Part shown: piece by piece, positions 12,860 to 52,184 of the stretch
Position numbering within the stretch: the stretch's first letter is position 1
Layout of the letters: each line of letters begins with the position of its first letter
Source: Streptomyces sp. TN58
Lineage (GTDB): Bacteria > Actinomycetota > Actinomycetes > Streptomycetales > Streptomycetaceae
Length of the DNA stretch: 64,000 bases
NCBI RefSeq assembly: GCF_001941845.1
Contig: NZ_CP018870.1
Coordinates: 5,680,001 to 5,744,000 of the forward strand
Reading direction: 5' to 3'
Program-made: the position numbers and the translations under genes
The notes under the pieces: generated by a model
Databases searched by the model: none
What the model was told of the DNA's origin: nothing
The model's input: only the letters and a program-made list of their open reading frames with translations

Positions 12860-12874
12860 GTTGACATCGTCAAC
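12860..12874. promoter_or_regulatory. Shared island operator, site 1 (upstream of DISARM-like operon)
   Basis: GTTGAC-ATC-GTCAAC is a perfect 6-bp inverted repeat with a 3-nt spacer, 140 bp before the fusion-helicase start. Closely related elements occur at 40534 and 52170 before two other defence transcription units. The TTGACA within it could also serve as a -35 box, so a bound protein would block RNA polymerase. Confidence 0.65.
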
Positions 12875-13014
12875 GAACTTCGCTGTTGTTTACGATTGAA
12901 CTCTCGTGTACGCTGCTCGCGGGGCTGGGGGTCTGCCCGCGTCGCGAGACGGGGCGTTCTCCCGTGGGGAGTCGTGTGCTCGCAGGGCCACGCGAAAACG
13001 CAAGGGAATGGGCT

Positions 13015-16000
13015 GTGGCGACGGAGATGATCGCGGGGCGGTTCCGGCTCCTGGGGGCTGTGGACTCGGGCAACATGGGCGAGGTCCACAGAGCCGAGGA
13101 TCTGGAGGCCGCTCCAGGCGACGCCGATCGCGTCGTGGCGGTCAAGCTGATCCTCCGGCGTCGGTCCGGCCTGCAGATCGACACGCACGGCGACGCCAAG
13201 ACCGTGGAACGGTTCGCCCGCGAGGTCCGGATCATGCAGACCTTCGCCCGGCACCCCAACCTCCCGCGTACGATCGCCGGCGGTGTGGACGACACGAACG
13301 GCGGCCTGCCCTACCTCGCGATGGAATTCCTCGACGGCCATCCTCTGGCCGACCTGGTCGCCGACGAGCCGCAGCTGCCGATCTCCTGGGCGGCGGCCAT
13401 CGCGGCGCAGATGGCGGAGGGGCTCAAGGCCGCCCACGTCGAGGGCGTCGTGCACCGCGACCTCAAGCCCCGCAATGTCATGCTCACCCGCGGTGGCCTC
13501 GTGAAGGTCCTCGACTTCGGCATGGGCCGGATCGTCGACGACCCGGACGGTACCAAGCTCACCAGCACGGGCGTCACCGTCGGCACCGCCCGCTACATGG
13601 CACCCGAGCAGTTCCAGGGCGGAGCCGTAACCCCGGCGGCGGACCTCTACGCTCTCGGCTGCGTCCTGTACGAGATGCTCCTCGGCGTACCGCCGTTTGT
13701 CGGCACCTCCGCGTACGAACTCGGCGAGAAGCACGTCCGTCAGGCACCGAACCCGGTCAGGCTGGTCCGGCACGACGTCCCCGAGGCGCTCGCCCGCCTC
13801 GTCGACCGCCTCCTCGCCAAGGACCCGGCGGACCGCCCCGAGAGCGCCGCCGCCGTACGGGACGCCCTGCTGCCCTTCGTCGCGCCCGCCGAACCACTGC
13901 CCGCCTGGCGCGAGTTCGACCCGGTGGGCCGCCTCCTCCAGGACCGGGCCGCGCTCTCCACGCCCACGGCGCGGCAGGCTCCGGCCGACCAGCCGCCCGC
14001 CCAGACCCGCCCACACACGTCCGGTATGGACGTCTTCGGCGTCCACCGGGACCTGATCGACGAGTACCGCGCCTTCACCCAGGGCGGCACGATCATCCGT
14101 GACGAACGCGTCGCCGACTTCGTCCGGCGCGACCTCGACGCCAAGTCCCAGTGGCCCAACCCGTGGATCTCCCTCAACCCCTTCTTCGACTCCGCCGGCA
14201 CCGTTGCCGAGCTCGCTTCCCAGGGCGTCCTCCACCCCGAGTGCGCGCGGATCTTCCAGGCGAAGAAGACCAGGGGCGGCACCGTCTGCGACGGCCGCCC
14301 CCTCACCCTTCACCAACACCAGCGCGAAGCCGTCGACGCCGCCCGGTCCGGGGCGTCCTACGTCCTCACCACCGGCACCGGCTCGGGCAAGTCCCTCTCC
14401 TACATCGTGCCCATCGTCGACAAGGTCCTCAGGGACCGGGAGACGGAGCCGAGAGGGACGGCCAAGAGAGTCCGTGCGATCATCGTCTACCCCATGAACG
14501 CCCTGGCCAACAGCCAGCTCAAGGAGCTGGAGAAGTACCTGAGGGACGGCTACGGCGCAGGACGCGAGCCCGTCACCTTCGCCCGCTACACCGGCCAGGA
14601 GGACGACGCCGCCCGCAGGGAGATCCGTGACAACCCGCCGGACATCCTGCTCACCAACTACGTGATGCTGGAGCTGATGCTCACCCGCCCCGACGACCGC
14701 GACAGCCTCGTCCGGATGGCCAAGGGCCTCGAATTCCTCGTCTTCGACGAACTCCACACCTACCGAGGCCGCCAGGGCGCCGATGTCGCCCTGCTCATCC
14801 GACGTGTCCGCGAGGCGTGCCAGGCCGACCGTCTCCAGTGCGTCGGAACCTCCGCCACCATGTCCACCGAGGGCACGATCGACGAGCAGAAGAGCGTGGT
14901 CGCGGGCGTCGCCTCCAAGCTCTTCGGCACGAGGATCCGCACCGAGCACGTCATCGGCGAGACCCTGGTCCGCGCCACCGACCCGGCCCCCGACACCGTC
15001 CCTGCCGAGCGGCTGCGCACCACCGACGCGCCCCGTGCGTACGCGGACCTGGTCCGCGACCCGCTCGCCCGCTGGATCGAGACCCGCTTCGGCCTGGCCA
15101 CCGACACCCTCACCGACCGCCTCGTCCGCCAGAAGCCCGCCAAGATCGAGGACGCGGCCGAGGACCTCGCCCGGGAGAGCGGCGTGTCCGTCGAGGACTG
15201 CGCCGCGGCTCTGCGCGCCACCCTGGAGGCCGGCTCGCAGGCCCGTCACCCCGTCACGGAACGCCCCCTCTTCGCCTTCCGCCTCCACCAGTTCCTCTCC
15301 AAGGGCGACACCGTCTACGTCACCCTGGAGGACCCGGAAAGCCGCCACCTCACCCGTGACTACCAGCAGGTGCAGCCCGGCACCGACGGCAAGCTCCTCA
15401 TCCCGCTCGCCTTCTGCCGGGAGTGCGGCCAGGAGTACCTGACGGTGTGGCGCACCGAGAAGGACGGAGAGGTCCGCTACGAGTCCCGCCGCGACACCTC
15501 CGCCACGGGCGGCAGGGCCGGCGACGGCTACCTCTACGTCGGCCGCCCGTGGCCCCGCTCGCTCGACGAGGCCGTCGCCGAGCGCAAGCTGCCGGAGTCG
15601 TGGCTGGAGCTCGACGACCGTGGTCAGGAAGTCGTCAGGAAGTCGTACCGCGAGCGCGCGCCCCGCGCCGTGACCGTCGACCCCTATGGGTACGAAGGAC
15701 GGGGCGACCTGGACGCCGCCTTCATCCCGGCCCCGTTCCGCTTCTGCATCCAGTGCTCGGTGTCCTACGAGCAGCCGCGTGGCAAGGACTTCGCGAAGCT
15801 CGCGACCCTCGACCAGGAAGGCCGGTCCTCCGCCACCTCCCTGGTGTCGGCGGCCGTCGTCCGCTCCCTCAAGGCCGTGCCCGAGGAAGCCCTCGACAAG
15901 GAGGCGCGCAAGCTCCTCACCTTCGTCGACAACCGCCAGGACGCCTCCCTCCAGGCCGGCCACTTCAACGACTTCGTCCAGATCACCCAGCTGCGCGGCG

Positions 16001-19000
16001 CGCTCTACCGGGCCGCCCTGGACGCCGGGGAAGAAGGCATCCACCACGAGGAGCTGGCCACCCGCGTGGCGAACGCCCTCGCCCTGGACCCCGTCGAGTA
16101 CACCGGCCAGTCGGACCTGCCGCCCGCCCTCGCCCGCAACGCGGCCAAGACCCTGCGTGACGTCATCGCCTTCCGTCTCTACCTCGACCTGGAGAGCGGC
16201 TGGCGCATCACCATGCCGAACCTGGAGCGGACAGGTCTGCTGACGATCGACTACGCGGACCTCCAGTGGGTCGCCGAGCGTGACGAGCGCTGGCAGGACA
16301 CGCATGCGGCGCTCCGCGGCGCCGACCCCGCCCTGCGCGCCGAGATCACGCGGACGCTCCTGGACGACATGCGCCGCGAACTCGCCATCGACGTCCAGTA
16401 CTTCCGCGACGACTTCGACGCCCTCCAGCGTGCCAGCGAGGAACGCCTCATCGACCCGTGGGTCCTCGGCAGGTCCGACGCGCCCAGGGTCAAGACCGCC
16501 TACCCGCAGCCCTCCAGCCCCGGCATGGACCGTTCCGGGCACTTCCTCTCGGCCCGCGGCAAGTTCGGCAAGTACCTGCGCCGCACCGCACCCACGGTCT
16601 TCGACGCGCGCGACGGCGTGAAGTTGGACAACACCGACCTCCAGAAGGTCATCGTGGACCTGCTGAAGGTGCTCGCGAAGGCCGGCCTGGTCACCGAGGT
16701 CAGTGCCGCCCCCCAGCGCGCCGGCCGCTTCCGCGCGCCGACCGGTCCCGCCGCCACCGGCTACCGGATCTCCGCCGCCTCCCTCATCTGGCGGGCCGGC
16801 CCCGGCGAGTCCGGCGCCCACGACCCTCTCACCCGCACCTACGCCAGCGGCGACGGGCCGCGCGTCAACACCTTCTTCCGCGACCTCTACCGCAACGCCG
16901 CCGCCGAACTGTCCGGCCTGTTCGCCCGTGAGCACACCGCCCAGGTCGACCCCGCCGAGCGTGAGCGCCGCGAAGAAGCCTTCAGCAAGGCCGAACTGAA
17001 GCTTCTCTACTGCTCCCCGACCATGGAGCTGGGCGTCGACATCTCGTCCCTCAACGCGGTCATGATGCGCAACGTGCCGCCCACCCCGGCCAACTACGCA
17101 CAGCGCAGCGGACGCGCCGGCCGGAGCGGCCAGCCCGCCCTCGTCACCACGTACTGCGCCACCGGCAACAGCCACGACCAGTACTACTTCCGTCGCTCCG
17201 AGCGCATGGTGGCGGGTGCCGTCGCCCCGCCGCGCCTCGACCTCGCCAACGAAGACCTCGTCCTCTCCCACCTCCAGGGCATCTGGCTCGCCGAGGCCGG
17301 GCTGAAGCTCGGCCGGGCCATTCCGCAGATCATCGACATCGCGTACGACGAGAGCCTGGGCCGCCCGAACCCGGCGCTCCACCTCCACGACGACCTGTAC
17401 GCGGCCTCCCGCGACGCCGACGCGCAGGCCCGCACGGTGGCGGCGGCCCACCGGGTCCTCGGCCCGTTGCTTGCCGACTTCGCCATGACCGTTTGGTGGG
17501 ACGAGCGCTGGATCGAGGACCGTGTCCGTACCGCCCCCGACCGCTTCGACCGCGCCTTCGACCGCTGGCGAGACCTCTTCCGGGCCGCCCTCGTCGACCA
17601 GTACGTCCAGAACAAGCGGGTCCTCGACCACACCCTCACGGAAGGCGACCGGCGGCGCGCCGTCGCCCGCCGCAAGGAGGCCGAGACCCAGCTCAATCTC
17701 CTCAAGAACGAGACCCCGGACAGCAGGTCCGTCCTCTCCGACTTCAACCCCTACCGCTACCTCGCCTCCGAGGGCTTCCTGCCCGGCTACTCCTTCCCCC
17801 GCCTGCCGCTGGCCGCCTACATCCCGACCACCGGCCGTCGCCACGGCGACGGCGACTACCTCCAGCGCCCCCGTTTCCTCGCCATCCGCGAGTTCGGCCC
17901 CGGCGCGCTGATCTACCACGAGGGCGCCCGCTACCAGGTGACCCGCGTCCAGCTGCCCCCGGACTCCTCCGGCGACATCGCCACCACTGCGGCAACCCGC
18001 TGCAAGCACTGCGGCTACCACCACGATCCCGAGCAGCGCGCCGACGTCTGCGACATGTGCAAGGAGCCGCTCGGCGCCGCCGCCTACAACCTGCTGCACC
18101 TGCACACCGTCTACACCCAGCGCCGGGAGCGGATCTCCTCCGACGAGGAGGAGCGCCGCAGGGCCGGATTCCGGCTGGAGATCTCGTACCGCTTCCAGGA
18201 CCACGGCATCCGCAAGGGCCGCCAGGACGCCCACGTCTCGGACCCGGCGGGCAGTCTCGCCACGATCTCGTACGGCGACTCGGCCACCGTCCGCATCACC
18301 AACAAGGGACGGCTGCGCGCCAAGGAGAACGAGCAGGACGGCTACTGGCTCGACCCCGCAAGCGGCCACTGGATGAACGAACGCGATGCCGCCGAGGCGT
18401 CCGGCGACTCCAGCGAGATGCCGGTCATCGACCCGGACGGCAACGAGAAGCGCCGCAGGAAGCGAGTCGTCCCCTTCGTCGAGGACCGCCGCAACATCCT
18501 CGTCGTCACCCTCGACGAGCCGCTGCCCGAACCCATCGCCCTCACTCTCATGTACGCCCTGGAGCGGGGCGTCGAGGCGGCGTTCGAGCTGGAGGACTCC
18601 GAGCTCACCAGCGAACTGCTCCCGCCCGACGACGGTCCCCGCAACCGCTTCCTGCTCACCGAGGCCGCGGAGGGCGGCGCCGGAGTCCTGCGCCGCCTCC
18701 AGGCCGAGCCCGGAGCGCTCGCCGTCGCCGCCCGCCGCGCCCTGGAGATCTGCCACTTCGACGAGCACGGAGTGGACCAGGCCGAGCAGCACTGCGCCCG
18801 AGGCTGCTACGACTGCCTGCTCACCTACGGCAACCAGCTCGACCACGCGGCCATCGACCGCCACACCGTCGTCCACCTGCTGCGCCGCCTCGCCTCCGCC
18901 GTGTCCGAGCCCGAAGGGCGGGGCGAGTCCCCGACGGAGCAGCACCGGCGGCTCGTCGAGGAGCTGGGGCGAACGGCCCCGAAGCTCGCCGACACGCCGG

Positions 19001-19326
19001 CCGACGACACCGACGACATGGCGAACACTCCCCTGGAGCAGACCCTCGTCAACTGGCTCAGGGACCACGGCCTGCGCCTGCCCGACGAGGGCCAGACTCT
19101 CGTCGGCACCGCCCTCCCCGACTTCGTCTACCACCTGCCCGGAGTCAACCTCGCCGTCTTCGTCGACGGGCCGGACAGGGAGGAGGACGCCACCCGGGAC
19201 GAGGACGCCGAGGAGCGCCTCTACGACGCCGGCTGGGGCGTCGTCCGCTTCCCGGCCGACCCCGCCGACTGGGACGCCGTCGTCGCCCGCCACGCCCGCT
19301 ACTTCGGCGGCCCCGCCGCCTCCTGA
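13015..19326 (+). CDS. Ser/Thr kinase - DExH helicase - DUF1998 - nuclease-like fusion protein (DISARM/Druantia-like)
   Basis: A 2103-aa multidomain protein. Residues about 5-290 are a Hanks-type kinase: VAVK lysine, HRDLKPRNV near 147, DFG near 167, GTARYMAPEQ. Residues about 430-1400 are an SF2 helicase: Walker A TGTGSGKS near 452, DELH near 578, SATMS, and QRSGRAGRSGQ near 1362. Cys pairs CRECGQEY and CIQCSVSY lie inside it and a zinc ribbon (CKHCG...CDMCKE) near 1662. Residues about 1900-1950 hold the DUF1998 signature (CARGCYDCLLTYGNQLDH). The tail (PDFVY near 2035, AVFVDG, GWGVVRF) resembles Vsr/PD-(D/E)XK nucleases. DUF1998 helicases occur in DrmB, DruE and MrfA. A kinase at the front is not part of the classical systems I know. 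GTG at 13015 follows AAGGGA. It is first in a three-gene operon with a SNF2 helicase and methyltransferase. Confidence 0.85.
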   Translation: MATEMIAGRFRLLGAVDSGNMGEVHRAEDLEAAPGDADRVVAVKLILRRRSGLQIDTHGDAKTVERFAREVRIMQTFARHPNLPRTIAGGVDDTNGGLPYLAMEFLDGHPLADLVADEPQLPISWAAAIAAQMAEGLKAAHVEGVVHRDLKPRNVMLTRGGLVKVLDFGMGRIVDDPDGTKLTSTGVTVGTARYMAPEQFQGGAVTPAADLYALGCVLYEMLLGVPPFVGTSAYELGEKHVRQAPNPVRLVRHDVPEALARLVDRLLAKDPADRPESAAAVRDALLPFVAPAEPLPAWREFDPVGRLLQDRAALSTPTARQAPADQPPAQTRPHTSGMDVFGVHRDLIDEYRAFTQGGTIIRDERVADFVRRDLDAKSQWPNPWISLNPFFDSAGTVAELASQGVLHPECARIFQAKKTRGGTVCDGRPLTLHQHQREAVDAARSGASYVLTTGTGSGKSLSYIVPIVDKVLRDRETEPRGTAKRVRAIIVYPMNALANSQLKELEKYLRDGYGAGREPVTFARYTGQEDDAARREIRDNPPDILLTNYVMLELMLTRPDDRDSLVRMAKGLEFLVFDELHTYRGRQGADVALLIRRVREACQADRLQCVGTSATMSTEGTIDEQKSVVAGVASKLFGTRIRTEHVIGETLVRATDPAPDTVPAERLRTTDAPRAYADLVRDPLARWIETRFGLATDTLTDRLVRQKPAKIEDAAEDLARESGVSVEDCAAALRATLEAGSQARHPVTERPLFAFRLHQFLSKGDTVYVTLEDPESRHLTRDYQQVQPGTDGKLLIPLAFCRECGQEYLTVWRTEKDGEVRYESRRDTSATGGRAGDGYLYVGRPWPRSLDEAVAERKLPESWLELDDRGQEVVRKSYRERAPRAVTVDPYGYEGRGDLDAAFIPAPFRFCIQCSVSYEQPRGKDFAKLATLDQEGRSSATSLVSAAVVRSLKAVPEEALDKEARKLLTFVDNRQDASLQAGHFNDFVQITQLRGALYRAALDAGEEGIHHEELATRVANALALDPVEYTGQSDLPPALARNAAKTLRDVIAFRLYLDLESGWRITMPNLERTGLLTIDYADLQWVAERDERWQDTHAALRGADPALRAEITRTLLDDMRRELAIDVQYFRDDFDALQRASEERLIDPWVLGRSDAPRVKTAYPQPSSPGMDRSGHFLSARGKFGKYLRRTAPTVFDARDGVKLDNTDLQKVIVDLLKVLAKAGLVTEVSAAPQRAGRFRAPTGPAATGYRISAASLIWRAGPGESGAHDPLTRTYASGDGPRVNTFFRDLYRNAAAELSGLFAREHTAQVDPAERERREEAFSKAELKLLYCSPTMELGVDISSLNAVMMRNVPPTPANYAQRSGRAGRSGQPALVTTYCATGNSHDQYYFRRSERMVAGAVAPPRLDLANEDLVLSHLQGIWLAEAGLKLGRAIPQIIDIAYDESLGRPNPALHLHDDLYAASRDADAQARTVAAAHRVLGPLLADFAMTVWWDERWIEDRVRTAPDRFDRAFDRWRDLFRAALVDQYVQNKRVLDHTLTEGDRRRAVARRKEAETQLNLLKNETPDSRSVLSDFNPYRYLASEGFLPGYSFPRLPLAAYIPTTGRRHGDGDYLQRPRFLAIREFGPGALIYHEGARYQVTRVQLPPDSSGDIATTAATRCKHCGYHHDPEQRADVCDMCKEPLGAAAYNLLHLHTVYTQRRERISSDEEERRRAGFRLEISYRFQDHGIRKGRQDAHVSDPAGSLATISYGDSATVRITNKGRLRAKENEQDGYWLDPASGHWMNERDAAEASGDSSEMPVIDPDGNEKRRRKRVVPFVEDRRNILVVTLDEPLPEPIALTLMYALERGVEAAFELEDSELTSELLPPDDGPRNRFLLTEAAEGGAGVLRRLQAEPGALAVAARRALEICHFDEHGVDQAEQHCARGCYDCLLTYGNQLDHAAIDRHTVVHLLRRLASAVSEPEGRGESPTEQHRRLVEELGRTAPKLADTPADDTDDMANTPLEQTLVNWLRDHGLRLPDEGQTLVGTALPDFVYHLPGVNLAVFVDGPDREEDATRDEDAEERLYDAGWGVVRFPADPADWDAVVARHARYFGGPAAS

Positions 19327-19370
19327 CCACGGAACCGACCGACCACCCGAGGACCCCGAGGACTCACCCG

Positions 19371-22280
19371 ATGACGCTCACCTACTCCGCCGGTTCCCTG
19401 GTCACCGCCCGAGGCCGCGAATGGGTCGTGCTCCCCGAGAGCGCCCCCGACATGCTCGTCCTGCGCCCGCTCGGCGGTTCCGACGACGACATCGCCGCCG
19501 TCTTCCCCGCCTTCGAGGACGTCAGAGGCGCCGAGTTCGCCCCGCCGTCCGCCGCCGACCTCGGCGACCACCGCGCCGCCGGGCTGCTGCGCTCCGCCCT
19601 CCGCATCGGCTTCCGCTCCGGAGCCGGCCCCTTCCGCTCCCTCGCCGGCATCGCCGTCGAACCCCGCGCCTACCAGCTCGTCCCGCTCCTCATGGCGCTG
19701 CGGCAGAGCACCGTACGGCTCCTCATCTCCGACGACGTCGGTATCGGCAAGACCGTCGAGGCCGGCCTCATCGCGAGCGAACTCCTCGCCCAGGGCGAGG
19801 CACGCGGCCTTGCCGTCCTCTGCTCACCGGCCCTCGCCGAGCAGTGGCAGGAGGAGCTGCGCACCAAGTTCGGCCTCGACGCCGAACTCGTCCTCGCCTC
19901 CACCGTCTCCCGCCTGGAGCGCGGCCTGGACCTGGGGCAGTCGCTCTTCGACAAGTACCCCCACGTCATCGTCTCCACCGACTTCATCAAGTCCACCCGC
20001 CACCGCGACGACTTCGTCAAGCACTGCCCCGACCTGGTGATCGTCGACGAGGCCCACACCTGCGTCGTCGCCGACGACACCACCTCCACGCAGAACCAGC
20101 TCCGCTACGAGCTGCTGCGCCGCGTAGCCGAGGACGCCGAGCGTCACCTGCTCCTCGTGACCGCCACCCCGCACAGCGGCAAGGAGTCCGCCTTCCGCAA
20201 CCTTCTCGGCCTGGTCAGGCCCGAACTGGCAGGCACGGACCTGGACTCCGACCGGGGCCGACGGCTCCTCGCCCAGCACTTCGTGCAGCGCAAGCGCGCC
20301 GACGTACGCCAGTACCTGACGACCGAGGACGGCCTCGGCGACGACAGCCTGGCCGAGCGGACCGCGTTCCCGTCCGACCGCTTCTTCAAGGACGAGACCT
20401 ACAAGCTGTCACCGGCCTACCGCGCCCTCCTCGACGACGCCATCGCCTATGCGAGCGAGCGCGTCGAGGCCGCCGGCAGCCAGGGCAAGCGCGAGGCCCG
20501 TATCGCCTGGTGGTCCGCGATCGCCCTGCTCCGCTCCCTCGTCTCCTCCCCGCGCGCCGCCGCCCAGACCCTCCGTACGCGCTCCGCCGCCGCGGCCGCC
20601 GCCAGCGCCGAGGAAGCCGACCGCTTCGGCGCGCCCCTCACCCGTGACGCGGCCGACAGCGACAGCCTGGAGGGCATGGACGTGGCCCCCGGTGCCGAGA
20701 CCGACGACGCGGGCGCCCGCCTCGCCGAACTCGCCGACCGGGCCGCCGCCCTGGAGGGCCCGGAAGGCGACCTGAAGCTGAAGGCCCTGGTCAAGCACCT
20801 CAAGGCGCTGCTCGCCGACGGCTACCACCCGATCGTCTTCTGCCGCTACATCCCCACCGCCGAGTACGTCGCCGAGCACCTGGGCGGCAAGCTCGGCAAG
20901 AAGACCGTCGTTCGCGCCGTCACCGGCACCCTCTCGCCCCAGCAGCGCATCGAGCGGATCGAGGAGCTGGCGGAGGAGGCCGGGCAGGACCCCGCCGCCC
21001 GCCGCGTCCTCGTCGCCACCGACTGCCTCTCCGAGGGCGTCAACCTCCAGCACCACTTCGACGCCGTCGTCCACTACGACCTCGCCTGGAATCCCACCCG
21101 CCACGACCAGCGTGAGGGCCGCGTCGACCGCTACGGGCAGCAGCGCGACGAGGTCCGGGTCATCACCCTGTACGGCAGCGACAACGGCATCGACGGCAAG
21201 GTCCTCGACGTCCTCATCAAGAAGCACCGCCAGATCAAGAAGGACCTCGGCATCTCCGTCTCCGTCCCCGACGAGACCTCCTCCGGCGTCACCGACGCCA
21301 TCGTGGAGTGGCTGCTGCTGCGCGGCCGGGAGGGGGAGCAGGGAACCCTCTTCGAGGCAGACTCCTTCCAGCAGAGCTTCGCCGACCTGGAGGCCGACTG
21401 GAAGTCGGCGGCCGAACGCGAGACCCGCTCCCGCTCCCGGTTCGCCCAGCGCTCCATCCACCCGGAGGAGGTCGCCCGCGAGGTCCTCGCCATCCGCGAC
21501 ACCCTCGGCCGCGCCGACGAGGTGAACGACTTCGTACGGACCTCCCTCGCGGCCCTGGAAGCCCACCTGGTGGAGGCGGGCGACGGCTCCGGCGACTTCA
21601 CCGCCGAGGTCAGCGGCACCTCCGCCGGCCTGCGCGACGCCCTCGCCCCCGTCGTCGGCTCCGCCGCCGTCGAAGGCGCCCGCCCCATCCCGTTCCGTAC
21701 GACCTCGGCCGTGGCCCGGGGCGAGGCCGCCCTCGTCCGCACCGACCCCGTCGTCGGTGCCATCGCCACCCACGTCCTGAACTCCGCCCTCGACAGCCAG
21801 GCCGACGGCCGCCGCCCCGCCCGCCGCTGCGGTGTCGTCGCCACCCGCGCCGTCGACACCCGCACGACCCTGCTCCTCGTCCGCTACCGCTTCCACCTCA
21901 CGCTGCCCTCCCGGCAGGGGGAGAAGCAGCTCGTCGCCGAGGACGCCCGCCTCCTAGCCTTCCAGGGCTCCCCGAAGAACGCCGTGTGGCTGCCCGAGGA
22001 CCGGGCCCATGCCCTCCTCACCGCCCAGGCCGCCGACAGCGTCGACCCCGACCACGGTGAGCACATGATGACCCGGGTCCTCGGCCAGCTCTCGGCTGTC
22101 ACCGACCACTTGGAGCAGTACGGCGACACCCTCTCCGCCGAACTCCACGAGTCCCACCGGCGGGTCCGCCGCGCCTCCGACGAGATCGTCCGCGGCCTGC
22201 GGGTCACCGCCCAGAAGCCGGCCGACGTCCTCGGCGTCTACGTCTACCTGCCCGCCGCGTCCGGAGAGGCCGCCGTCTGA
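19371..22280 (+). CDS. drmD: SNF2-type helicase, DrmD-like
   Basis: A 969-aa SF2 ATPase of the SNF2 branch that would translocate on double-stranded DNA. Motif I is [13 protein letters not shown] (residue about 121), the DEAH box is VIVDEAH (about 226), and motif III is TATPHSGK. The C-terminal lobe has [44 protein letters not shown] in place of the usual DEMGLGKT is characteristic of this defence-linked group. Length and neighbourhood match DrmD of class 1 DISARM, which sits beside the DrmMI methylase. The ATG at 19371 is 45 bp after the fusion helicase. It overlaps the next gene by one base (TGATG), implying translational coupling. The symbol is an assignment by similarity of architecture, not an alignment. 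Confidence 0.8.
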
Positions 22281-32791: not shown

Positions 32792-32838
32792 AACCTCGCT
32801 CCTGGAGCGCGCTCCCACGCGCCCGTCACGCTGATCCC

Positions 32839-40533: not shown

Positions 40534-40548
40534 GTTGACGTCGCTAAC
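40534..40548. promoter_or_regulatory. Shared island operator, site 2 (upstream of Rad50-like/McrBC operon)
   Basis: GTTGAC-GTC-GCTAAC lies 72 bp upstream of the Rad50-like gene. It matches site 3 in 15 of 17 positions when extended to GTTGACGTCGCTAACGC. The right half is imperfect. The intergenic region 40434-40619 has no gene. Confidence 0.55.
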
Positions 40549-40619
40549 GCGAGTGCGTCAAGGTGTGGTTCTGAGATGCGGTCCACCGCCGTACCGCAGT
40601 TCCCTTGCCTGGAGCCGCC

Positions 40620-43004
40620 GTGAGCGATCAGTCCCACCCGTCCCTCCGCGACCTCGTCCTCAAGCGCCTGGCCGTTTCCAGCGTGGAGCCGGAGACGGCG
40701 GACCTGTTGCGCGACCTGTTCCCCGAGGCTCCGAACGGAACGGCCACCCGGACGGGACCCCTCTTCCTGCGCTCCATCACGGCTGCCGGGTGGCGGGGCA
40801 TCGGGCCGGAGGCCACGCTCGACCTCACGCCGGCACCGGGACTCACCGTCGTCGCCGGACGCAACGGCTCCGGGAAGTCCAGCTTCGCCGAGGCTGCCGA
40901 GATGACGCTGACGGGCGACAACTTCCGCTGGCAGGACCGTACACAGATCTGGCGGCAGGGGTGGCGCAATCTGCACAACCCCGCGACTCCCCGTGTGGAG
41001 GTGGTGTGCTCCCGCGACGGTGCGGCGGCTCCGGCCACCATTGGCAGGAGCTGGCACGGTGCGAACCTGAGTGACGCGCGGGTGGCGGTCCGCCGGCCCG
41101 GCGAGCCCGATGCCGAACTGCATCAGGTCGTCGGCGCGGAGGAGCTCGCGCTGTACCGGCCGTTCCTCTCGTACAGCGAACTCGGGGCCGTGATCAACGG
41201 CCCCATGACCGCCCTCCATGACGGACTCGCCCAGATCCTCGGCCTGGAGCAGCTCTCCGAGGCCTATAAGGAGGCGGGAGCCCGCCTCAAGGCGATCAAG
41301 GACGGCGAGAAGAAGGTCACCGACCTGGCAGCCACGGTCCTCACCGAACTGCGGGGCTCCGGCGACCCGAGGGCCGTCGCGGCCGTGGAGGTTCTCTCCG
41401 CACGCCGCCCGGACCGCGAACGCGTTCGCACCCTCCTCGCCGCACGGCCCGAAGGCGACAACGCCGAACTCGAAAGGCTGCGCGGGCTCTCCACCCTCGA
41501 AGGGCCTGATCTGAGCGACATCAGCGGTGCCGTGACGCGGCTGCGGGAAGCCGCGGCCCGGGCCGATGACGCGCGGTCCGGCTCCGCCGAGGACGCCCGC
41601 CGTCTCTCCGACCTCCTGGAGCGGGTGCTCGACCACCGGCGGCGGGCGCGGACCGCCGACTGCCCCGTCTGCGACACCCCCGGACTGCTCGACGACGACT
41701 GGGCGGTGCGCGCCCGGGAGCAGGTCGAACGGCTCCAGCACGAAGCCGCGGAAGCGCAGTCCGCGCGCGACGACCTGCGCGGCGCCATCCGCGCCGTCCA
41801 CGATCTCGTCCAACCCGTTCCCGTATGGCTCCGGCCGGAGGACTCGCCGCTCGCCACCCTCTGGCGGGAATGGTCCCTGTGCCGGAGCGTGACCGACCCC
41901 CGCCCGCTGGCGGATCAGGTCGAGCGCCTTTCGGCCGCCCTCGCCGACGCCTGCCGACAAGAGAGCGAGCAGGCGGCCCGCCTGCTCGCTGATCAGGACG
42001 CCGGCTGGCAGCCGCTCGGGGTGCGCCTCGCCGAATGGCTGGCCGCCGCCGACCGGGCCGCCGAGGCCGCATTGCTCGGCAAGCGGCTCAAGGACGCGCA
42101 GACCTGGCTCAAGAAGGTCACCGACGAACTCCGCGAGGAGCGGCTGCGCCCGTTCGCCGACCAGTCGCAGACCATCTGGAAGCTGCTCTGCGAGCGCAGC
42201 AGCGTCACGCTCGGCTCGATCGGCCTGACGGGGACGGCCAACCAGCGCAAGGTGAAGCTCGACGTGTCCGTGGACGCCATGGACGCGCCCGCCTTCGGCG
42301 TGATGAGCCAGGGTGAACTGCACTCGCTCGCCCTCTCGCTGTTCCTCCCTCGCGCCACCCACCCCGACAGCCCTTTCGGATTCCTGGTGATCGACGACCC
42401 GGTGCAGTCCATGGACCCGGAGAAGGTCGAGGGGCTCGCGCGGGTCCTCCACGCCTGTGCCCAGCGCCGCCAGGTGATCGTCTTCACTCACGACACCCGC
42501 CTCCAGCAGGCCATCCGCCACCTGCGCATCCCCGCGACGATCATGCAGGTCTCCCGGCAGACCGACTCCGTCGTCAAGGTCACCCGCACCGACGACCCGG
42601 TCTCCCTCGCGCTGAGCGAGGCCCGGGCCGTCGCCAAGGACCCGAACGTGCCGCAGGACGTCGCCGACCGGGTCCTGCCCCAGATGTGCCGTGGCGCCCT
42701 GGAGGCCGCCTGCCTGGAACCCGCACGGCGCCGCCTGCGGGCCGAAGGCCACGGCCACGCCGATGTCGAGGCCAGGATCGGCAAGGCACACAAGCTCACC
42801 GAACTCGCCGCGCTCGCCTTCTACGACAGCACCATGGAGCCCGCCCAGGTCCTCGCCGCCGTCGCCCAGGACCACGGCCCCTGGGCCCGCGCGCTCATCG
42901 AGCGGTGCAACGCCGGCGCCCACCAGCTCCTCACCCCGATCGGCGACCGCATGGACCTGGTCCGGGACACCGAGCGCCTTGCGAAGGCGGTGCGCGGCCG
43001 ATGA
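40620..43004 (+). CDS. Rad50/SbcC-like SMC-type ATPase
   Basis: A 794-aa ABC ATPase with the SMC-family split head. Walker A is AGRNGSGKSSF (about residue 80). Two helical arms flank a CPVC motif (about 348) placed like the zinc hook of Rad50. The signature helix is MSQGELHSLALSLFLPR (about 563), and Walker B is FGFLVIDDPVQSMD (about 588), followed by VIVFTHDTRL. It is shorter than true Rad50 or SbcC, as are defence-associated versions such as those in Lamassu and RecF-like systems. GTG at 40620 has GGAG five bases upstream. It heads a six-gene operon and overlaps the next gene by ATGA. Confidence 0.88.
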   Translation: MSDQSHPSLRDLVLKRLAVSSVEPETADLLRDLFPEAPNGTATRTGPLFLRSITAAGWRGIGPEATLDLTPAPGLTVVAGRNGSGKSSFAEAAEMTLTGDNFRWQDRTQIWRQGWRNLHNPATPRVEVVCSRDGAAAPATIGRSWHGANLSDARVAVRRPGEPDAELHQVVGAEELALYRPFLSYSELGAVINGPMTALHDGLAQILGLEQLSEAYKEAGARLKAIKDGEKKVTDLAATVLTELRGSGDPRAVAAVEVLSARRPDRERVRTLLAARPEGDNAELERLRGLSTLEGPDLSDISGAVTRLREAAARADDARSGSAEDARRLSDLLERVLDHRRRARTADCPVCDTPGLLDDDWAVRAREQVERLQHEAAEAQSARDDLRGAIRAVHDLVQPVPVWLRPEDSPLATLWREWSLCRSVTDPRPLADQVERLSAALADACRQESEQAARLLADQDAGWQPLGVRLAEWLAAADRAAEAALLGKRLKDAQTWLKKVTDELREERLRPFADQSQTIWKLLCERSSVTLGSIGLTGTANQRKVKLDVSVDAMDAPAFGVMSQGELHSLALSLFLPRATHPDSPFGFLVIDDPVQSMDPEKVEGLARVLHACAQRRQVIVFTHDTRLQQAIRHLRIPATIMQVSRQTDSVVKVTRTDDPVSLALSEARAVAKDPNVPQDVADRVLPQMCRGALEAACLEPARRRLRAEGHGHADVEARIGKAHKLTELAALAFYDSTMEPAQVLAAVAQDHGPWARALIERCNAGAHQLLTPIGDRMDLVRDTERLAKAVRGR

Positions 43005-43393: not shown

Positions 43394-43417
43394 CCGGTGC
43401 ACCGAAAGGACCACGGC

Positions 43418-45067
43418 ATGGACACACGCCGCTACCGCATGGTCGTCACCAGCGGCCTCGACTACGTCAGCACCGGCGCGCAGGTCGACGCCCGGCTCCG
43501 GGACTGGCTGCGTGAACCGCCCAAGAACTACGACATCCAGGCGTTCGCGGAGGGACGCAACGAGATAGCCCGGGGAGTCACGCTCGACCACGACTCGGCG
43601 ACCGGCACCGGCGGGGCGTACGGGCGTTGGCGCCTCCGGGAGACCGCCCCGGACGGCACCTGGCAGACGACCCTGGTGATCAGGCAGACGGAGAGCCGGC
43701 CGACCCGCGTACAGCTGGACGTGGAGCACCTTCCCGACGATCCGGACACGTTGCCGACGCCCGCAAAGACCCCCCGTCTCGCGGCAAGCCTGCTGGACGT
43801 CCTTCAGGCCCGCGACGGGCTCGCGGACGTGACCCGGATGCCACAGGTCGTCGAGGCGGCCGACATCGACTCCGTCATCGACGAGTTGTGCGACGCGGAG
43901 CGTCGTCTCCCGATCGTCATGGCCACCGCCCCGAACGGGGCCGACTTCGATGTCTGGCTGGAGCGGACCCTGGACCCGCTGGTCCGTCCCCTGGCCGGCC
44001 TCGCCATCCTCTACGCCCTCGCGCCCGGGGCGGACAACCGCTTCAACCGGCTCATGGAGTACCACCGGGTGTACGGCGGCGGCATCCGGACCTTCCTTCC
44101 TGGTGTGGACCCGGCCTGGGCGGCCGACGGCCAGCGCCACCGCGTCATGTCGCACCGGGTCGTCGCCGAGAACCCGGCCCGGGCCCGCCGCCTGCTCGCC
44201 CAGCTTCCCCAGGGCCTCGCCACCCGGGCGCCACTGCCGCCCGAGCTGGACGCGGTGCCCGTGTTGCGCGCGCGTACCAAGGAGAGCTCGGGCAGCTCCG
44301 AGCTGGAGCGGCTGAGGGACGAGAACCATGCCCTCTTCGAGATCCTCGAGGAAGCCGGGCGCGAGCAGCGGGTACGGGCCGACGAGATCAGGGACCTGAA
44401 GAACGAACTCCAGCGCGCCAGGAGCGACGAGATCACGCTGATCGCCGAGTACGACGAGCAGTACCGGGAACTGCACGAGAGCCGGGTCCAGCTCGTCACC
44501 GTGCAGAAGCGCCTGCTCGCCCTCGGCGCCGCCGAAGCCGCGTACGCCCCGGACGACGGCGGTCCCGCTGTCCCCGAGTCCTTCGCGGAGATCCTGGAAC
44601 GGATCGAGGAGATGCCTCGCGTGCACTTCACCGGAGCCAGGAAGATCACCCTGGAACTGGACGACCAGGCGTACGGTTCCTCCTGGGTCCGCATGGCCTG
44701 GGACGCACTGCTGGCGCTTCGGGACTACGCCGACGTCTCGGTCGACGCCCCCGCCGACGGCGCGGCCTTCCGTGACTTCAAGCAGTGGTGCGAGGACGCT
44801 CCGGGCGGCAGGCACGCGATATCGCCCCGTAAGGTCGTGCGCGACGAGTCCAGGACGGTGAAGACGAACAACGCCTGGCGCAAGGAACGGACCTTCCCCG
44901 TCCCGGAACACGTGGATCCAGCCTGCCGGCTGTTCATGGGCGCGCACGTGAGGATCGGCGGCGGCAACACCGTCGCTCCACGCCTGCACTACCACGACGC
45001 CGCCCGCGCCGAGCACGGGATCTTCATCGGATACATCGGGCCGCACCTCACCAACACCCTCACCTGA
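43418..45067 (+). CDS. Coiled-coil protein of unknown function in McrBC operon (549 aa)
   Basis: I do not recognise a family. The N-terminal about 280 residues form a mixed alpha/beta region (VVTSGLDYVSTGAQVDARLRDWL, RLPIVMATAPNGADFDVWLER, PLAGLAILYALAPGADNRFN). Residues about 290-375 are a clear coiled coil (heptad-rich ELERLRDENHALFEILEEAGREQRVR onward). The C-terminal domain ends in RLHYHDAARAEHGIFIGYIGPHLTNTL, a motif shared loosely with the frameshifted 39452-40433 product. ATG at 43418 follows GAAAGGA; a GTG seven codons earlier is possible. It sits between the ATPase pair and mcrB, so it is probably an adaptor or effector for one of them. Confidence 0.72.
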   Translation: MDTRRYRMVVTSGLDYVSTGAQVDARLRDWLREPPKNYDIQAFAEGRNEIARGVTLDHDSATGTGGAYGRWRLRETAPDGTWQTTLVIRQTESRPTRVQLDVEHLPDDPDTLPTPAKTPRLAASLLDVLQARDGLADVTRMPQVVEAADIDSVIDELCDAERRLPIVMATAPNGADFDVWLERTLDPLVRPLAGLAILYALAPGADNRFNRLMEYHRVYGGGIRTFLPGVDPAWAADGQRHRVMSHRVVAENPARARRLLAQLPQGLATRAPLPPELDAVPVLRARTKESSGSSELERLRDENHALFEILEEAGREQRVRADEIRDLKNELQRARSDEITLIAEYDEQYRELHESRVQLVTVQKRLLALGAAEAAYAPDDGGPAVPESFAEILERIEEMPRVHFTGARKITLELDDQAYGSSWVRMAWDALLALRDYADVSVDAPADGAAFRDFKQWCEDAPGGRHAISPRKVVRDESRTVKTNNAWRKERTFPVPEHVDPACRLFMGAHVRIGGGNTVAPRLHYHDAARAEHGIFIGYIGPHLTNTLT

Positions 45068-45175
45068 GGTACAGAGCGGGGTTAAGGTCCTTCTCGGCAC
45101 CGACCTTCGGGCATATGCCCTGCCCGTGTCCAAGGACTCACGGGAACGAGGAACGTACGTGAACCAGGAGTGTGC

Positions 45176-48249: not shown

Positions 48250-48293
48250 GATCGTTTCGGCCGCGCCGCACGCCACGAGGTAAGGAGCCCACC

Positions 48294-50450
48294 GTGCCCC
48301 AGCTCGCCTTCGCGAACAGCTTCTGGGAGAGCTACGACGTGCTGGAGAAGCCCGTCAAAGCCGGAGTGCGCAAGGCGATGGCCAAGTTCCAGCAGCTCAC
48401 CGTCGCGGAACTGCACGCCGACAAGGGGCTTCACCTGGAGTCGGTGGACAAGGCGCGCGATCCACGGATGAGGACCATCCGGATCAACGACTTCTGGCGC
48501 GGAGTGGTCCTCGCCCCGAACGACGGCAGCGACGTCTTCCTCCTCATCAACGTCGTGCCGCACGACGACGCCTACAGCTGGGCGGCCAAGCGGCTCTACA
48601 CGGTCAACACCGCCACCCGCGGCCTGGAGGTCCGCAACGTCGTCGCCATCGAGCAGCTGACGCCAGTCCTGGAGAAGGCGGCGGCAGTGGCCCCCACTCT
48701 GCTTTTCGCCTCCCATTCGGACACCGTGCTGCGGGAACTCGGCATCGACGCGCAGGTGTTGCGGGCGGTGCGCACCATCACGGACCAGGCCCAGCTGGAC
48801 GCGTTCGGCACTCTGCTTCCCGAGGACCAGTTCGAAGTCCTCCAGTTCCTCGCGGAGGGTTTCAGCCCGGAAGAGGTCTACCGTGACGTCGTCACCGCAC
48901 GGCGGCCCGCCGACGCTCCTGAAGACCCCGCGGACGACCTCGTGTCGGCGATCCTCCATACCAGAAGCCGCATCACGCTCGTGACCGGGCCGGACGAGCT
49001 GGCCGAGATCCTGGAGAAGCCCTTCGCCGCCTGGCGGGTCTTCCTCCACCCCTCCCAGCGGCGCGTCGCTTATCGTGTGTCCTACGGCGGGCCGGCCCAA
49101 GTGACCGGAGGCCCGGGCACGGGCAAGACCGTTGTCGCCCTGCATCGTGTCAAACACCTGCTGTCCCGCTCCGAGGACAGCCGGGTCCTGTTCACCACGT
49201 ACACCAACGCGCTCGCGGTGAGCCTGCGTGAGAACCTCGCGCAGCTGCTCGACGGCGATGAGGCGCAGCTTCGCAGGGTCGACGTGACGACGGTGAACGC
49301 CTACGCGCACCGAGCCCTTCAGACAGCCGACGGTCGGACGCCGTCCCTTGTCGGAGACCGTGAGGAGCGGCAGATCTGGCAGCGGGTCGGCAAACGCCTC
49401 GGCCTTCCGTGGCCGGAGCAGTTCCTCGCCCAGGAATATCGCCACGTCGTACTCGCCCAGGACATCGGCACGCTCGACGCCTACCGGGGCGCGGCGCGCA
49501 GAGGACGCGGCTCGGCGCTGCCCGTAGCCCAGCGAGAGCGGGTCTGGGAGGCGATCGAGCTCTTCCGGGCCGAACTCTCCGCCCGAGGCGGCCGCACCCA
49601 CCTCGAAGTCTGCGCCGAGGCGGCACGGCTACTGGCGGCGCGACAAGCCTCGGACGGTCATGACTACCACCACGTGGTCGTCGACGAGGCGCAGGACCTG
49701 CATCCGGCCCAGTGGCGCGTACTGAGGGCCGCTGTACGGCGCGGACCCGATGACCTCTTCATCACCGGTGACCCCCATCAGCGGATCTACGACTCCCGGG
49801 TCAGCCTGAGTTCACTGGGGATCGGGGTGACAGGCCGGAGCAGTCGGCTGAGGGTCAACTACCGCAGCACGGAGGAGATCCTGAGCTGGTCCACCGGCAT
49901 CCTGAACGATGTGGCTGTCGAGGATCTCGGCGGGGACGGTGTGGACACCCTCCTCGGCTACCGTTCCCTCCTCCGTGGAGGCCGGCCTCATGTCATAGGA
50001 CACGCCACCGAACAGGCTGAGGCGGACGCGATCGTCGAGCGGATTGAGGAGTGGATCGGCCAGGGCATGCGTCCCGAGGAGATCGGGGTGTGTGCCCGGT
50101 TCCACCTGCTCCTGGACAAGGTGTACGACAGGCTCGCGGCTCGGGGCATTCCCGTGGTCCGGGTCAAGGAGGCGCCGAGGGCGGGAGCGGCAGGAGTGCG
50201 CCTTGCGACGATGCACGCGATGAAAGGGCTGGAGTTCCGGGGCGTCGGTGTACTTGGCGTCTCCGACGGCGCGCTTCCCTTCGCCCGCGAGGTCACCGCG
50301 GCGGCGACGGACAGACTGCAGCACGAGGCTGATCTGCTGCGCGAGCGGTGCCTGTTGTTCGTTGCCTGCACACGGGCCCGAGAAGCGCTGCACGTGTCCT
50401 GGAGCGGAAAGCCCAGCCCGTTCGTTCCCCTGGCCGCCGAACTCACCTGA
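48294..50450 (+). CDS. UvrD/Rep-type helicase with N-terminal RelE-like domain
   Basis: A 718-aa SF1A helicase. The first about 95 residues (FWESYDVLEKPVKAGVRKAMAKFQQL, RTIRINDFWRGVVLAPNDGSDVFLLINVVPHDDAYSWA) have the RelE/ParE toxin layout, with the usual His-Asp near the end of the sheet. The helicase begins with Walker A VTGGPGTGKTVVALHR (about 272), then VVVDEAQDLHPAQW (about 464), ITGDPHQRIYDSR, LRVNYRST and the C-terminal TMHAMKGLEFRGV and FVACTRA. This fusion is known in actinobacteria. GTG at 48294 has AAGGAG upstream. It is 44 bp after mcrC and ends the operon, convergent with the methylase. Confidence 0.88.
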   Translation: MPQLAFANSFWESYDVLEKPVKAGVRKAMAKFQQLTVAELHADKGLHLESVDKARDPRMRTIRINDFWRGVVLAPNDGSDVFLLINVVPHDDAYSWAAKRLYTVNTATRGLEVRNVVAIEQLTPVLEKAAAVAPTLLFASHSDTVLRELGIDAQVLRAVRTITDQAQLDAFGTLLPEDQFEVLQFLAEGFSPEEVYRDVVTARRPADAPEDPADDLVSAILHTRSRITLVTGPDELAEILEKPFAAWRVFLHPSQRRVAYRVSYGGPAQVTGGPGTGKTVVALHRVKHLLSRSEDSRVLFTTYTNALAVSLRENLAQLLDGDEAQLRRVDVTTVNAYAHRALQTADGRTPSLVGDREERQIWQRVGKRLGLPWPEQFLAQEYRHVVLAQDIGTLDAYRGAARRGRGSALPVAQRERVWEAIELFRAELSARGGRTHLEVCAEAARLLAARQASDGHDYHHVVVDEAQDLHPAQWRVLRAAVRRGPDDLFITGDPHQRIYDSRVSLSSLGIGVTGRSSRLRVNYRSTEEILSWSTGILNDVAVEDLGGDGVDTLLGYRSLLRGGRPHVIGHATEQAEADAIVERIEEWIGQGMRPEEIGVCARFHLLLDKVYDRLAARGIPVVRVKEAPRAGAAGVRLATMHAMKGLEFRGVGVLGVSDGALPFAREVTAAATDRLQHEADLLRERCLLFVACTRAREALHVSWSGKPSPFVPLAAELT

Positions 50451-50462
50451 CCGGTCGGCCTG

Positions 50463-52124
50463 TCACTCGCCCCAGTCGCCCGCATGGGGGACGAGGGCGC
50501 CGTTGGTCAGTCCGTCCCTGGCCAGAGAGGCCGCCCTCTGCCCCAATTCCGCCAGCTTCGTCATGCGCTCCTCGAACTCCTGGAGTGTGCGGAAGACCGC
50601 TCCGTAGCGACGCTGGTCGGCGACCGCCATCTGCGGGATGCGTGCCGCTCGCGCGTCCACACGATGCGTACCGCTGGCGCTGGTCGAGCGACGGACATTT
50701 GACACGCTCTGAAGAAAGCCGCGCAGGTAGTCCGTATCGAGTTGAGGACTCGTCGAATGGGGGCCGCCGGTATCCGTCTCGATCAGACCCGCCCGGGACA
50801 GTTCAGCGAGGCTGACCGTGGCCGTGTCCAGAGAGTCCTCTCCTGCCCCCTCTCGTAGAGCGGGCAGGAGGGCACCCAGCGCATGGAGTTGCTGCTCGAT
50901 CTGTTCGCGCAGGGACTGGTACTCCGCTCGGAAGTCATGGGTGGAACGGTGGACGTGATGGCCCGGAGTGAGATCGACGGTCTCGTCGAGAAGGTCGATG
51001 AGGGGGACGTCGACGACCTGGTCACCCGTGGGTTCCAGTGGTCCGTCCGGCTCGTTGCCCGTCAGGTCGATCATGCGCACGTGCGACGGAGTCGCATCGT
51101 CCGGCTTCGGGCGGCGGAGGATCCAGAGCAGTACGGGGACGGAGTGCGAGGAGGCGACTCCGCCAGGCAGTGCGACGACCTGGACGAGGATTCCCCGCCG
51201 CACGAGCTCTGCCCGGATCCGGCGCCCCGCCTTGCGGTAGGCCGTGGAGGCCGGCATGACGATCACCGTGCGACCCCCGGGGGCGGTGTGGGCGTAGCAG
51301 TGTTGGAGCCAGGCCAGTTCCCCCTCGGCCTTGGAGGGCGTACCGAGCTCCCAACGCGCGTCGAGGAGCAGTTCCTCACGCCCCCAGTCGGGGCCGGAGA
51401 CAGGCGGCTCGCAGACGACGAGATCGGCGCGGAGCGAGGGCCAGGCATCCGCCCGCAGCGAGTCACCCGCTTGGATCACCGCATCGGTTCGGCCGGTCAA
51501 ATCGGCTCGAAGGCCGGCGAACCGTGCTGCTGCGGGGTCGATCTCCTGCCCGCGAACGACCGTACCGTCGGCGTCGCCCACGGCCATGAGAAGGACCCCG
51601 ATACCGCAGGCTGGGTCGAAGACGGTGGCGCCGTCGGTGGCCCGGCCCGCGAAGTGGACAACCGCCCGGGTGATCCGTGCGGAGGACACCTGGTCAGAGC
51701 CGCTGCGGCGGGCCGAGTCCTGGAAGCGCTCGACAAGTCCGTCGACTGCGTCGGCCGCGGGGGCGTTCTTTGCCAACGAGGTGACGATCGCGGCTGCCGT
51801 GGAGTCGAGGCCGGACGGATTTCCCGTCGAGAGGAACTCGGCGACCGAAGCCAGACCGCCGATCATGTCATCGCTGAACGACGCACGGAGCGCCTGCCAG
51901 AGCCGGACCTCGTCGGAGACGTCGTGGCTCTTCCGCTGGGTTGCCAGCCATGTCCGTACGTCGGCAAGGGAGAACAGCGGCGTGCCCGGACTGCCTCCCG
52001 CCGGGGCGGGGAAGTCCTTGTGGCGACGCCTCCAGTTCGACACAGCCGCTCGCGTGACGCCCGCGATGCGTGCGATCTCGGCCCCGGTGATCAAAGGGTC
52101 TGCTGCACCCGCTTCATCCCTCAT
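50463..52124 (-). CDS. N6-adenine DNA methylase with N-terminal HTH; variant motif IV
   Basis: A 553-aa type I HsdM-like methylase. Residues about 12-60 form an HTH (ITGAEIARIAGVTRAAVSNWRRRHKDFP). Residues about 150-350 are the methylase fold, with motif I VFDPACGIGVLLMAVG (about 168). At motif IV, where N/D-PP-Y/F is expected, the protein has VVCEPPVSG (about 238). The C-terminal about 180 residues include a long helix pair (EYQSLREQIEQQLHALGALLPAL and YGAVFRTLQEFEERMTKLAELGQRAASLA) as in target-recognition subunits. The E for N change could abolish catalysis and leave a DNA-binding role. It converges on the UvrD gene 12 bp away and has a shared operator in its promoter. Confidence 0.83.
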   Translation of the reverse strand: MRDEAGAADPLITGAEIARIAGVTRAAVSNWRRRHKDFPAPAGGSPGTPLFSLADVRTWLATQRKSHDVSDEVRLWQALRASFSDDMIGGLASVAEFLSTGNPSGLDSTAAAIVTSLAKNAPAADAVDGLVERFQDSARRSGSDQVSSARITRAVVHFAGRATDGATVFDPACGIGVLLMAVGDADGTVVRGQEIDPAAARFAGLRADLTGRTDAVIQAGDSLRADAWPSLRADLVVCEPPVSGPDWGREELLLDARWELGTPSKAEGELAWLQHCYAHTAPGGRTVIVMPASTAYRKAGRRIRAELVRRGILVQVVALPGGVASSHSVPVLLWILRRPKPDDATPSHVRMIDLTGNEPDGPLEPTGDQVVDVPLIDLLDETVDLTPGHHVHRSTHDFRAEYQSLREQIEQQLHALGALLPALREGAGEDSLDTATVSLAELSRAGLIETDTGGPHSTSPQLDTDYLRGFLQSVSNVRRSTSASGTHRVDARAARIPQMAVADQRRYGAVFRTLQEFEERMTKLAELGQRAASLARDGLTNGALVPHAGDWGE

Positions 52125-52169
52125 GAGTCAACCGTACACGCCGCTACAGACGCGAGTTAGATAGTGAGC

Positions 52170-52184
52170 GTTGACGACGTCAAC
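52170..52184. promoter_or_regulatory. Shared island operator, site 3 (upstream of HTH-methylase)
   Basis: GTTGAC-GAC-GTCAAC (with outer C/G making 7-bp arms) lies 46 bp upstream of the methylase start. On the methylase strand it reads GTTGACGTCGTCAACGC, 15 of 17 identical to site 2. A further half-site, GTTGAC, abuts the start codon near 52125-52131. Confidence 0.65.

Follow-up and report, generated by a model that had tools for sequence, protein, structure and literature searches.

A palindromic operator shared by three defence promoters of a Streptomyces island, and a helix-turn-helix methylase as its likely reader

We have analysed a stretch of 64,000 nucleotides of Streptomyces sp. TN58 (contig NZ_CP018870.1, positions 5,680,001 to 5,744,000; hereafter the window), in which a palindrome of the form GTTGAC-N3-GTCAAC lies upstream of three defence units. 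Comparison with related genomes indicates that a single transcription regulator probably uses this palindrome as its operator, the best candidate being the helix-turn-helix (HTH) methylase encoded at 50463-52124, which would control the three units as a defence regulon. Site S1 (GTTGACATCGTCAAC, 12860..12874, plus strand) lies 5' of an operon that starts with a kinase-helicase gene and resembles the ARMADA system, S2 (GTTGACGTCGCTAAC, 40534..40548, plus strand) overlaps the predicted -35 box TTGACG of an operon headed by a Rad50-like gene, and S3 (GTTGACGTCGTCAAC, 52170..52184, minus strand) lies 5' of the HTH-methylase gene. A preliminary description of this DNA had named these three sites; all were found at the places that it gave, and S2 and S3 are identical at 15 of 17 bases, as it had said. 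S1 and S3 fit the pattern without mismatch and S2 with two, S2 obtaining its top matrix score when read as GTTAGCGACGTCAAC on the minus strand.

The genome scan proposed in that description gave two exact matches in 7,585,034 bases, S1 and S3, and the reversed control pattern gave none. With no further perfect match in the genome, the equally good sites in housekeeping promoters that would have spoken against a dedicated operator were not encountered. One-mismatch matches outside the three sites occur at six places, five of which look coding (frames open across the 321-401 bases read, third-position GC of 0.86-0.97). When up to three mismatches are allowed, 57 places are found in the window versus 21 expected; because most of these are coding-like words, this loose count says little, and it is the near-perfect sites that matter. 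We also trained a 15-bp matrix on 76 of the 80 other HTH-methylase loci (47 distinct 15-mers), leaving out the window's own site as well as L031, L060 and L071, for which the site was chosen at a wrong distance, and L073, for which the start was not called. The top three scores of the window are S1 (23.9), S3 (23.1) and S2 (20.3), followed by a place within the UvrD gene (14.1), and a matrix retrained without the perfect palindromes and the six closest relatives kept this order (23.4, 22.6 and 20.1, then 14.2). No place scored at least 20 in 3 Mb of first-order Markov sequence. As a caveat, a GTGGAC-N3-GTCAAC word in a coding-like stretch elsewhere in the genome scores 21.5, GTGGAC being present in no training site. 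A matrix score of 16.5 or more was used to call a site in relatives. Further sites are seen within coding stretches of relatives, e.g. in L025 (position 4469) and L035 (position 6388).

The HTH-methylase protein was searched in 84,980 species genomes, which yielded 140 stretches with a relative, and the best 80 (49-96% identity) were kept. A site is present within 150 bp 5' of the HTH-methylase gene in 75 of these 80 loci, and the geometry is nearly fixed: the site centre lies 53-56 bp from the start codon in 68 of the 80 promoters, window included, and a TANNNT hexamer is found 40-45 bp from the site centre in 70, 65 of which have GTG in front of the hexamer. This -10 usually reads GTGTACNNT, which contains the half-site-like GTGTAC. 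For S3 the predicted -10 is TACGGT (52131..52136, minus strand), 41 bp from the site centre, and since the ATG follows 6 bases on, the mRNA of the HTH-methylase may be leaderless and start at this codon. The kinase-helicase promoters have the same layout. Using the N-terminal 662 residues as query, we found 33 genomes above 800 bits among 246 genomes of the genus; the best 30 loci, the window's included, all have a site (17.8-25.4) and all have TANNNT 41-43 bp from its centre. The predicted -10 of S1 is TACGCT (12909..12914, plus strand), 42 bp from the centre. S1 and S3 are thus class I promoters, S2 belongs to class II, and the McrB promoters of relatives form class III.

This geometry bears on the proposal, made in the preliminary description, that the TTGAC of each site could be a -35 box. 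The proposal stands for S2, where TTGACG is followed after 18 bases by CAAGGT; we dropped it for S1 and S3, because there 42 and 41 bp separate the site centre from a conserved -10, a spacing too large for TTGAC to be its -35. It bears likewise on the idea that no regulator is involved and that the three sites reflect chance or a duplication of promoter DNA, a good -35 TTGAC being palindromic by accident. TTGAC is indeed a -35 consensus and S2 fits a promoter with it, but the genome-wide uniqueness of the palindrome, the placement of S1 and S3 far from a -35, the conservation of the site across genera and its tracking with one protein (see below) make this explanation extremely improbable. A chance palindrome as such was ruled out by the genome-wide search together with the conservation in relatives.

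The two other promoter classes place the site differently. Matches to the Rad50-like protein were found in 47 of the 246 genomes, and among the best 30 loci, which include the window's own, 17 have a site (16 with a score of at least 16.5, and L091 with 15.3). TTGAC lies in the left half of 16 of these 17 sites, L091 having TTGAT. The hexamer 18 bases after TTGAC is CATGCT in eight loci and CATGAT, CATAAT or GATGAT in three; the other six, which include the window's locus and the three loci closest to it, fit such a -10 poorly, and the predicted -10 for S2, CAAGGT (40559..40564, plus strand, 18 bases past TTGACG), is weak. For McrB the best 30 loci were fetched, 29 of them in genomes with an HTH-methylase orthologue (defined as a match above 500 bits, for which 50 of the 246 genomes qualify) and one, G227, without. 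The 15 loci most similar to the query (L206-L220, 73-89% identity) have a site 24-601 bp 5' of the matched stretch, and, judging from this site and its -10, these McrB genes would be operon heads. Fourteen of the 15 have a TANNNT whose first base is 11 bp (13 loci) or 14 bp (one locus) away from the centre of the closest site; L213 has no such hexamer. Eight of the 15 also have a distal site 51-53 bp, or about five helical turns, further upstream, four have one at 115-300 bp, and in three none was seen. The other 15 McrB loci (62-68% identity) have no site of at least 16.5 within 1.5 kb, one locus reaching 15.2. Nine of their genomes have the site at the Rad50 gene, five have none in about 10 kb, and the last is G227. 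The operator is not at every defence module.

Across genomes, the site largely follows the HTH-methylase; the counts given here ignore kinship among genomes. All 17 site-bearing Rad50 loci are in orthologue genomes. The 13 site-less Rad50 loci comprise ten from genomes without an orthologue, two (G164 and G032) from genomes that have one on another contig, and one (G223) from a genome with a partial match that spans just residues 101-547 and leaves the HTH outside; the association gives a Fisher probability of 1e-5, kinship ignored. In G054 (L087), a genome without an HTH-methylase match, a Rad50 homologue 71% identical to that of the window has no site, and homologues of merely 54-58% identity in orthologue genomes have one. 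The remaining site-less homologues are 43-50% identical, so that kinship and regulator are confounded for them. In seven genomes without an orthologue, the 6.6-9 kb read 5' of McrB contain no site (highest score 14.2). The 246 genomes hold 67 perfect palindromes, of which the 50 with an orthologue contribute 42 and the other 196 contribute 25; 35 of the 42 are no more than 70 kb away from the HTH-methylase or the kinase-helicase gene, which leaves seven elsewhere in orthologue genomes. Exactly three perfect sites, at the three expected genes, are present in each of the near relatives G116, G143 and G181. In addition, all 33 genomes with a kinase-fused helicase above 800 bits have an HTH-methylase orthologue, compared with 50 of 246 overall. 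The site occurs in Streptomyces and other actinomycetes, conserved across genera, and it is kept in the islands of relatives, where its absence would have weakened the case. With the site kept 5' of all three genes, in near-fixed geometry at two of them, and tracking one protein, these comparisons support the coordinated control suggested in the preliminary description. Its view that the systems are otherwise unrelated does not hold: these operons are modules that accompany the HTH-methylase, whose neighbours in other genomes are UvrD/McrC/McrB, or DrmMI/DpdE, or the kinase-helicase gene.

We also considered whether the site could be a general mark of defence promoters, and rejected this: of the JetA (Wadjet) homologues found, none of the closest 14 has it within 700 bp, three of those genomes having an HTH-methylase. 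As a single case, a lone Wadjet (JetA) gene in L078 (11191-12872) carries the operator, with the site at 11191, about 5 kb from an HTH-methylase.

The operator could be genuine and shared yet be bound by another protein, such as an XRE/DUF5753 protein or a chromosomal factor, the HTH-methylase gene being merely one of its targets. The island does encode a second HTH protein of the DUF5753 type (31765-32727), and five McrB operons near an HTH-methylase lack the site. Nevertheless, we regard another binder as unlikely. The operator is found at 75 of 80 HTH-methylase loci, and among the nine loci with no other window gene found in the flanks the HTH-methylase still has its site in eight. Rad50 and McrB genes of genomes without the HTH-methylase are without the site too, and a sister subfamily of the protein has its own variant site. 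This sister subfamily was defined by 20 longer relatives (L156-L175) with 40-45% identity over the matched part. Its recognition helix is VGRAAVSNWRRR in 18 of the 20, a site of the form GTGAAC-N3-GTCAAY lies within 300 bp 5' of the gene itself in 16, and TAGTAGCCT is conserved upstream in 11. Operator type and HTH subfamily thus tend to go together, which is what reading of the site by the HTH protein would predict. ARMADA helicases that lack the kinase were tried as a control without sites and proved unusable, since four of the seven carry or nearly carry the GTGAAC type: it scores 17.2-17.5 in three and 14.5 in one, and is missing in three. In the four loci with a GTGAAC-type site a sister gene lies 14-20 kb away, and for the three site-less loci a near sister gene is absent among the matches listed.

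What the proposed regulator looks like can be derived from its sequence and its model. Pfam N6_Mtase matches residues 129-356, PADLOC gives a mad2-like match for the protein and a weak mad1 match at residues 15-61 (E of 1.3e-4), and an AlphaFold2 model built with 32 sequences (mean pLDDT 85.2, pTM 0.70) has helices at residues 14-21 and 25-34. The Pfam match, the weak mad1 match and the model helices together point to an HTH fused to a methylase domain, as in regulators of the M.SsoII kind; the other trait of that kind, an operator in the protein's own promoter, is found in 75 of 80 loci. The recognition helix (residues 23-34) reads VTRAAVSNWRRR in 74 of 81 homologues and has a single change in the other seven. 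Of the 81, 76 keep DPACG, the S-adenosylmethionine (SAM) motif (motif I). All 80 homologues that are readable at motif IV, window included, have CDPP or CEPP there with A, V, T, G, M or P as the next residue (ETPV in two), one further homologue that ends short at the motif being excluded. In methylases of the NPPY/F type the aromatic residue of motif IV holds the flipped base, and its loss abolishes catalysis. None of the 80 has F, Y or W at this position. The methylase domain is therefore probably a sensor or scaffold and an enzyme no more, as far as its motifs tell.

If the protein were still an active adenine methylase, control could instead be epigenetic, through methylation of the A in GTTGAC/GTCAAC of the promoters, in a CfrBI-like manner. 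The DPACG motif in 76 of 81 homologues agrees with this, as do the closest solved folds, which are type I-like methylase subunits with PacII M first, sequence comparison giving the same answer. A precedent is also at hand, CfrBI methylating its own -35 region according to the available passages of PMC3978073. However, the aromatic residue missing from all 80 readable homologues is present in 13 of the 16 readable genes among the 20 of the sister subfamily (CNPPF in 12 and CEPPF in one, the other three having NPPS or DPPS), and the conserved signal is a 12-base palindrome, which exceeds the length to be expected for a methylation site. We judge an active methylase very unlikely for these reasons.

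Several observations weigh against a regulon run by the HTH-methylase. Five of the 80 HTH-methylase loci (L066, L069, L071, L079 and L082) stay below the threshold (9.8-16.3). S2 scores just 16.2 in the direction of its gene and has a weak -10, and a leftward transcript could arise from a TACGAT situated 42 bp left of the site; L084 and L085 also have this leftward TACGAT, at 41-42 bp on the same side. The Rad50 homologues of G164 and G032 are site-less despite an orthologue elsewhere in the genome. Five McrB operons of orthologue genomes (G144, G139, G078, G240 and G196; L243-L247) show no site in about 10 kb upstream, the sole exception being a borderline 16.5 in G144, and in four of these five genomes the HTH-methylase is a few kb off; these operons make the proposed regulon slightly less likely. 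Of the four kinase-less ARMADA loci discussed above, two have a sister gene (L156 and L157) that itself shows no GTGAAC-type site. Because the recognition helix hardly varies, covariation between HTH and half-site is uninformative, and no residue-by-residue covariation is seen within the family. Finally, the model shows an intact methylase fold, so that the loss of catalysis rests on one motif.

We propose that the N-terminal HTH (VTRAAVSNWRRR) would bind GTTGAC-N3-GTCAAC as a dimer, one half-site per HTH, and that, via this shared site, the HTH-methylase would control the Rad50/HEC-07/McrBC/UvrD operon and the ARMADA operon as well as its own expression. The predicted -35 of the Rad50 promoter lies under the site, and many McrB promoters of relatives have the site directly beside their -10; because of this overlap or adjacency, repression by blocking of the polymerase would be expected at both. 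At its own promoter and that of ARMADA the site lies 41-43 bp, about four helical turns, 5' of the -10, and about 54 bp from the regulator's own start codon. Such class I promoters could be activated, or repressed through bridging to GTGTAC, and we claim no sign for them. The state of the regulator might respond to the SAM level or to phage anti-restriction proteins, both being guesses. It is quite unlikely, but worth stating, that the family of HTH-fused methylases has turned into guards: having lost catalysis, a dead type I-like domain could sense phage attack on methylases and switch the ARMADA, McrBC and Rad50 modules together through one operator. Its cues would be a loss of SAM or anti-restriction proteins that mimic DNA (Ocr and ArdA, for example), upon which the operator would be released or flipped, and new modules could be recruited by gaining the 15-bp site.

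The control of defence-island switching is a largely open question, and the sequence signature described here predicts a regulon. The predicted circuit would consist of one regulator and one operator acting on several defence modules from varied promoter positions. The operator turns a neighbourhood of defence genes into a circuit that can be tested and may serve as a marker for finding more members, and a degenerate methylase is suggested as a defence regulator. By analogy, M.SsoII is the closest working precedent. In the available passages of PMC3978073, an N-terminal regulatory region on the methylases M.SsoII and M.Ecl18kI binds a 15-bp quasi-palindrome that controls their own system. Shared with our case are the N-terminal regulatory domain on a DNA methylase and a site in the control region of the protein's own defence genes. 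According to the same passages, M.SsoII and M.Ecl18kI are active C5 methylases serving one restriction-modification pair, and their regulatory site is distinct from the methylation site; here, in contrast, the fold is of the N6 type with a degenerate motif IV, several operons over 40 kb and varied promoter positions are concerned, and binding is predicted. RptR likewise is a defence-island regulator with a conserved palindrome as its operator; as far as the source excerpts tell (PMC12255303), it is a small repressor acting on TAGCTA repeats at one promoter, whereas here a methylase-fused HTH would act on a 15-bp palindrome at several promoters. BrxR-type WYL regulators of BREX also regulate a defence operon; BrxR is a WYL protein by the title of PMC9122589, and in what is available of that source it has no methylase fusion, unlike the HTH-methylase. 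The MADS system of PADLOC has mad1, an HTH protein, and mad2, a methylase; their counterparts are joined here in one protein, the mad1 match being weak. As for the MADS gene set, mad1, mad2, mad3, mad6 and mad8 matches fall on scattered genes, with no mad4, mad5 or mad7 among the matches listed. The operator is without description in the open-licence PMC literature searched, mostly at abstract level.

The first regulated operon (13015-26308, plus strand) fits ARMADA type I in the genes present and in their order, and its helicase carries a kinase at the front. The first gene (13015..19326) encodes this fusion of a protein kinase and a YprA/DruE-like, MZB-bearing helicase, the ARMADA YprA homologue; Pfam and PADLOC were run on the open frame from 12886, and the start codon at 13015 was picked by inspection. 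This frame (12886-19323) contains DEAD, Helicase_C and MZB domains and a DruE-like match of 344 bits, and thus has the MZB/DUF1998-type domain of the ARMADA helicase. It is followed by a DpdE/DrmD/BrxHII-like helicase gene (19323..22280; DpdE 1843 bits, DrmD 286, BrxH 194) and a DrmMI/PglX-like methylase gene (22280..26308; DrmMI 227 bits, Pfam Eco57I), as in the ARMADA order of YprA-like helicase, BrxHII-like helicase and PglX-like methylase described in the available passages of a preprint (PMC12458937). The two differ in that here the kinase is fused to the helicase and an HTH-methylase gene and operator accompany the operon; the passages available from that preprint mention no operator or HTH-methylase regulator, and the term 'helix-turn-helix' occurs 0 times in its main text. 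Regarding the DrmA/DrmB pair of DISARM, the MZB helicase is a single polypeptide whose PADLOC matches are led by DruE among the best 25 of 63 families, and the product of 19323-22280 has a DrmA match of 181 bits that ranks below its DpdE match.

The second operon (40605-50450, plus strand) begins with the Rad50/SMC-like ATPase gene (40605..43004, Pfam SMC_N), the first gene 3' of S2, and continues with genes for a HEC-07-like protein (43397..45067, PADLOC), an McrB-like AAA_5 protein (45170-47038, Pfam), McrC (47035-48249, Pfam) and a UvrD/GajB-like helicase (48294..50450, Pfam and PADLOC). The HTH-methylase gene (50463..52124, minus strand; Pfam N6_Mtase, PADLOC mad2-like), for the proposed shared regulator, comes next and codes for the HTH and a degenerate N6-methylase with CEPPV as motif IV.

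Other genes of the window are worth mentioning. The DUF5753-type HTH gene adjoins a HATPase gene (31765-33336 for the two), and relatives of both are found near HTH-methylases in L051, L063 and L078. An NsnA/NsnB-like pair (37124-39474, plus strand), with a GmrSD_N domain and an AAA ATPase, lies between both regulated operons, no operator being seen there. Beyond the HTH-methylase gene, a PIN-domain gene follows a short gene of unknown family (52240-52934, minus strand), possibly forming a toxin-antitoxin pair. This pair sits between the HTH-methylase and an EPSP-like gene (53599-55128, minus strand) that encodes an N-terminal HTH fused to an EPSP synthase domain.

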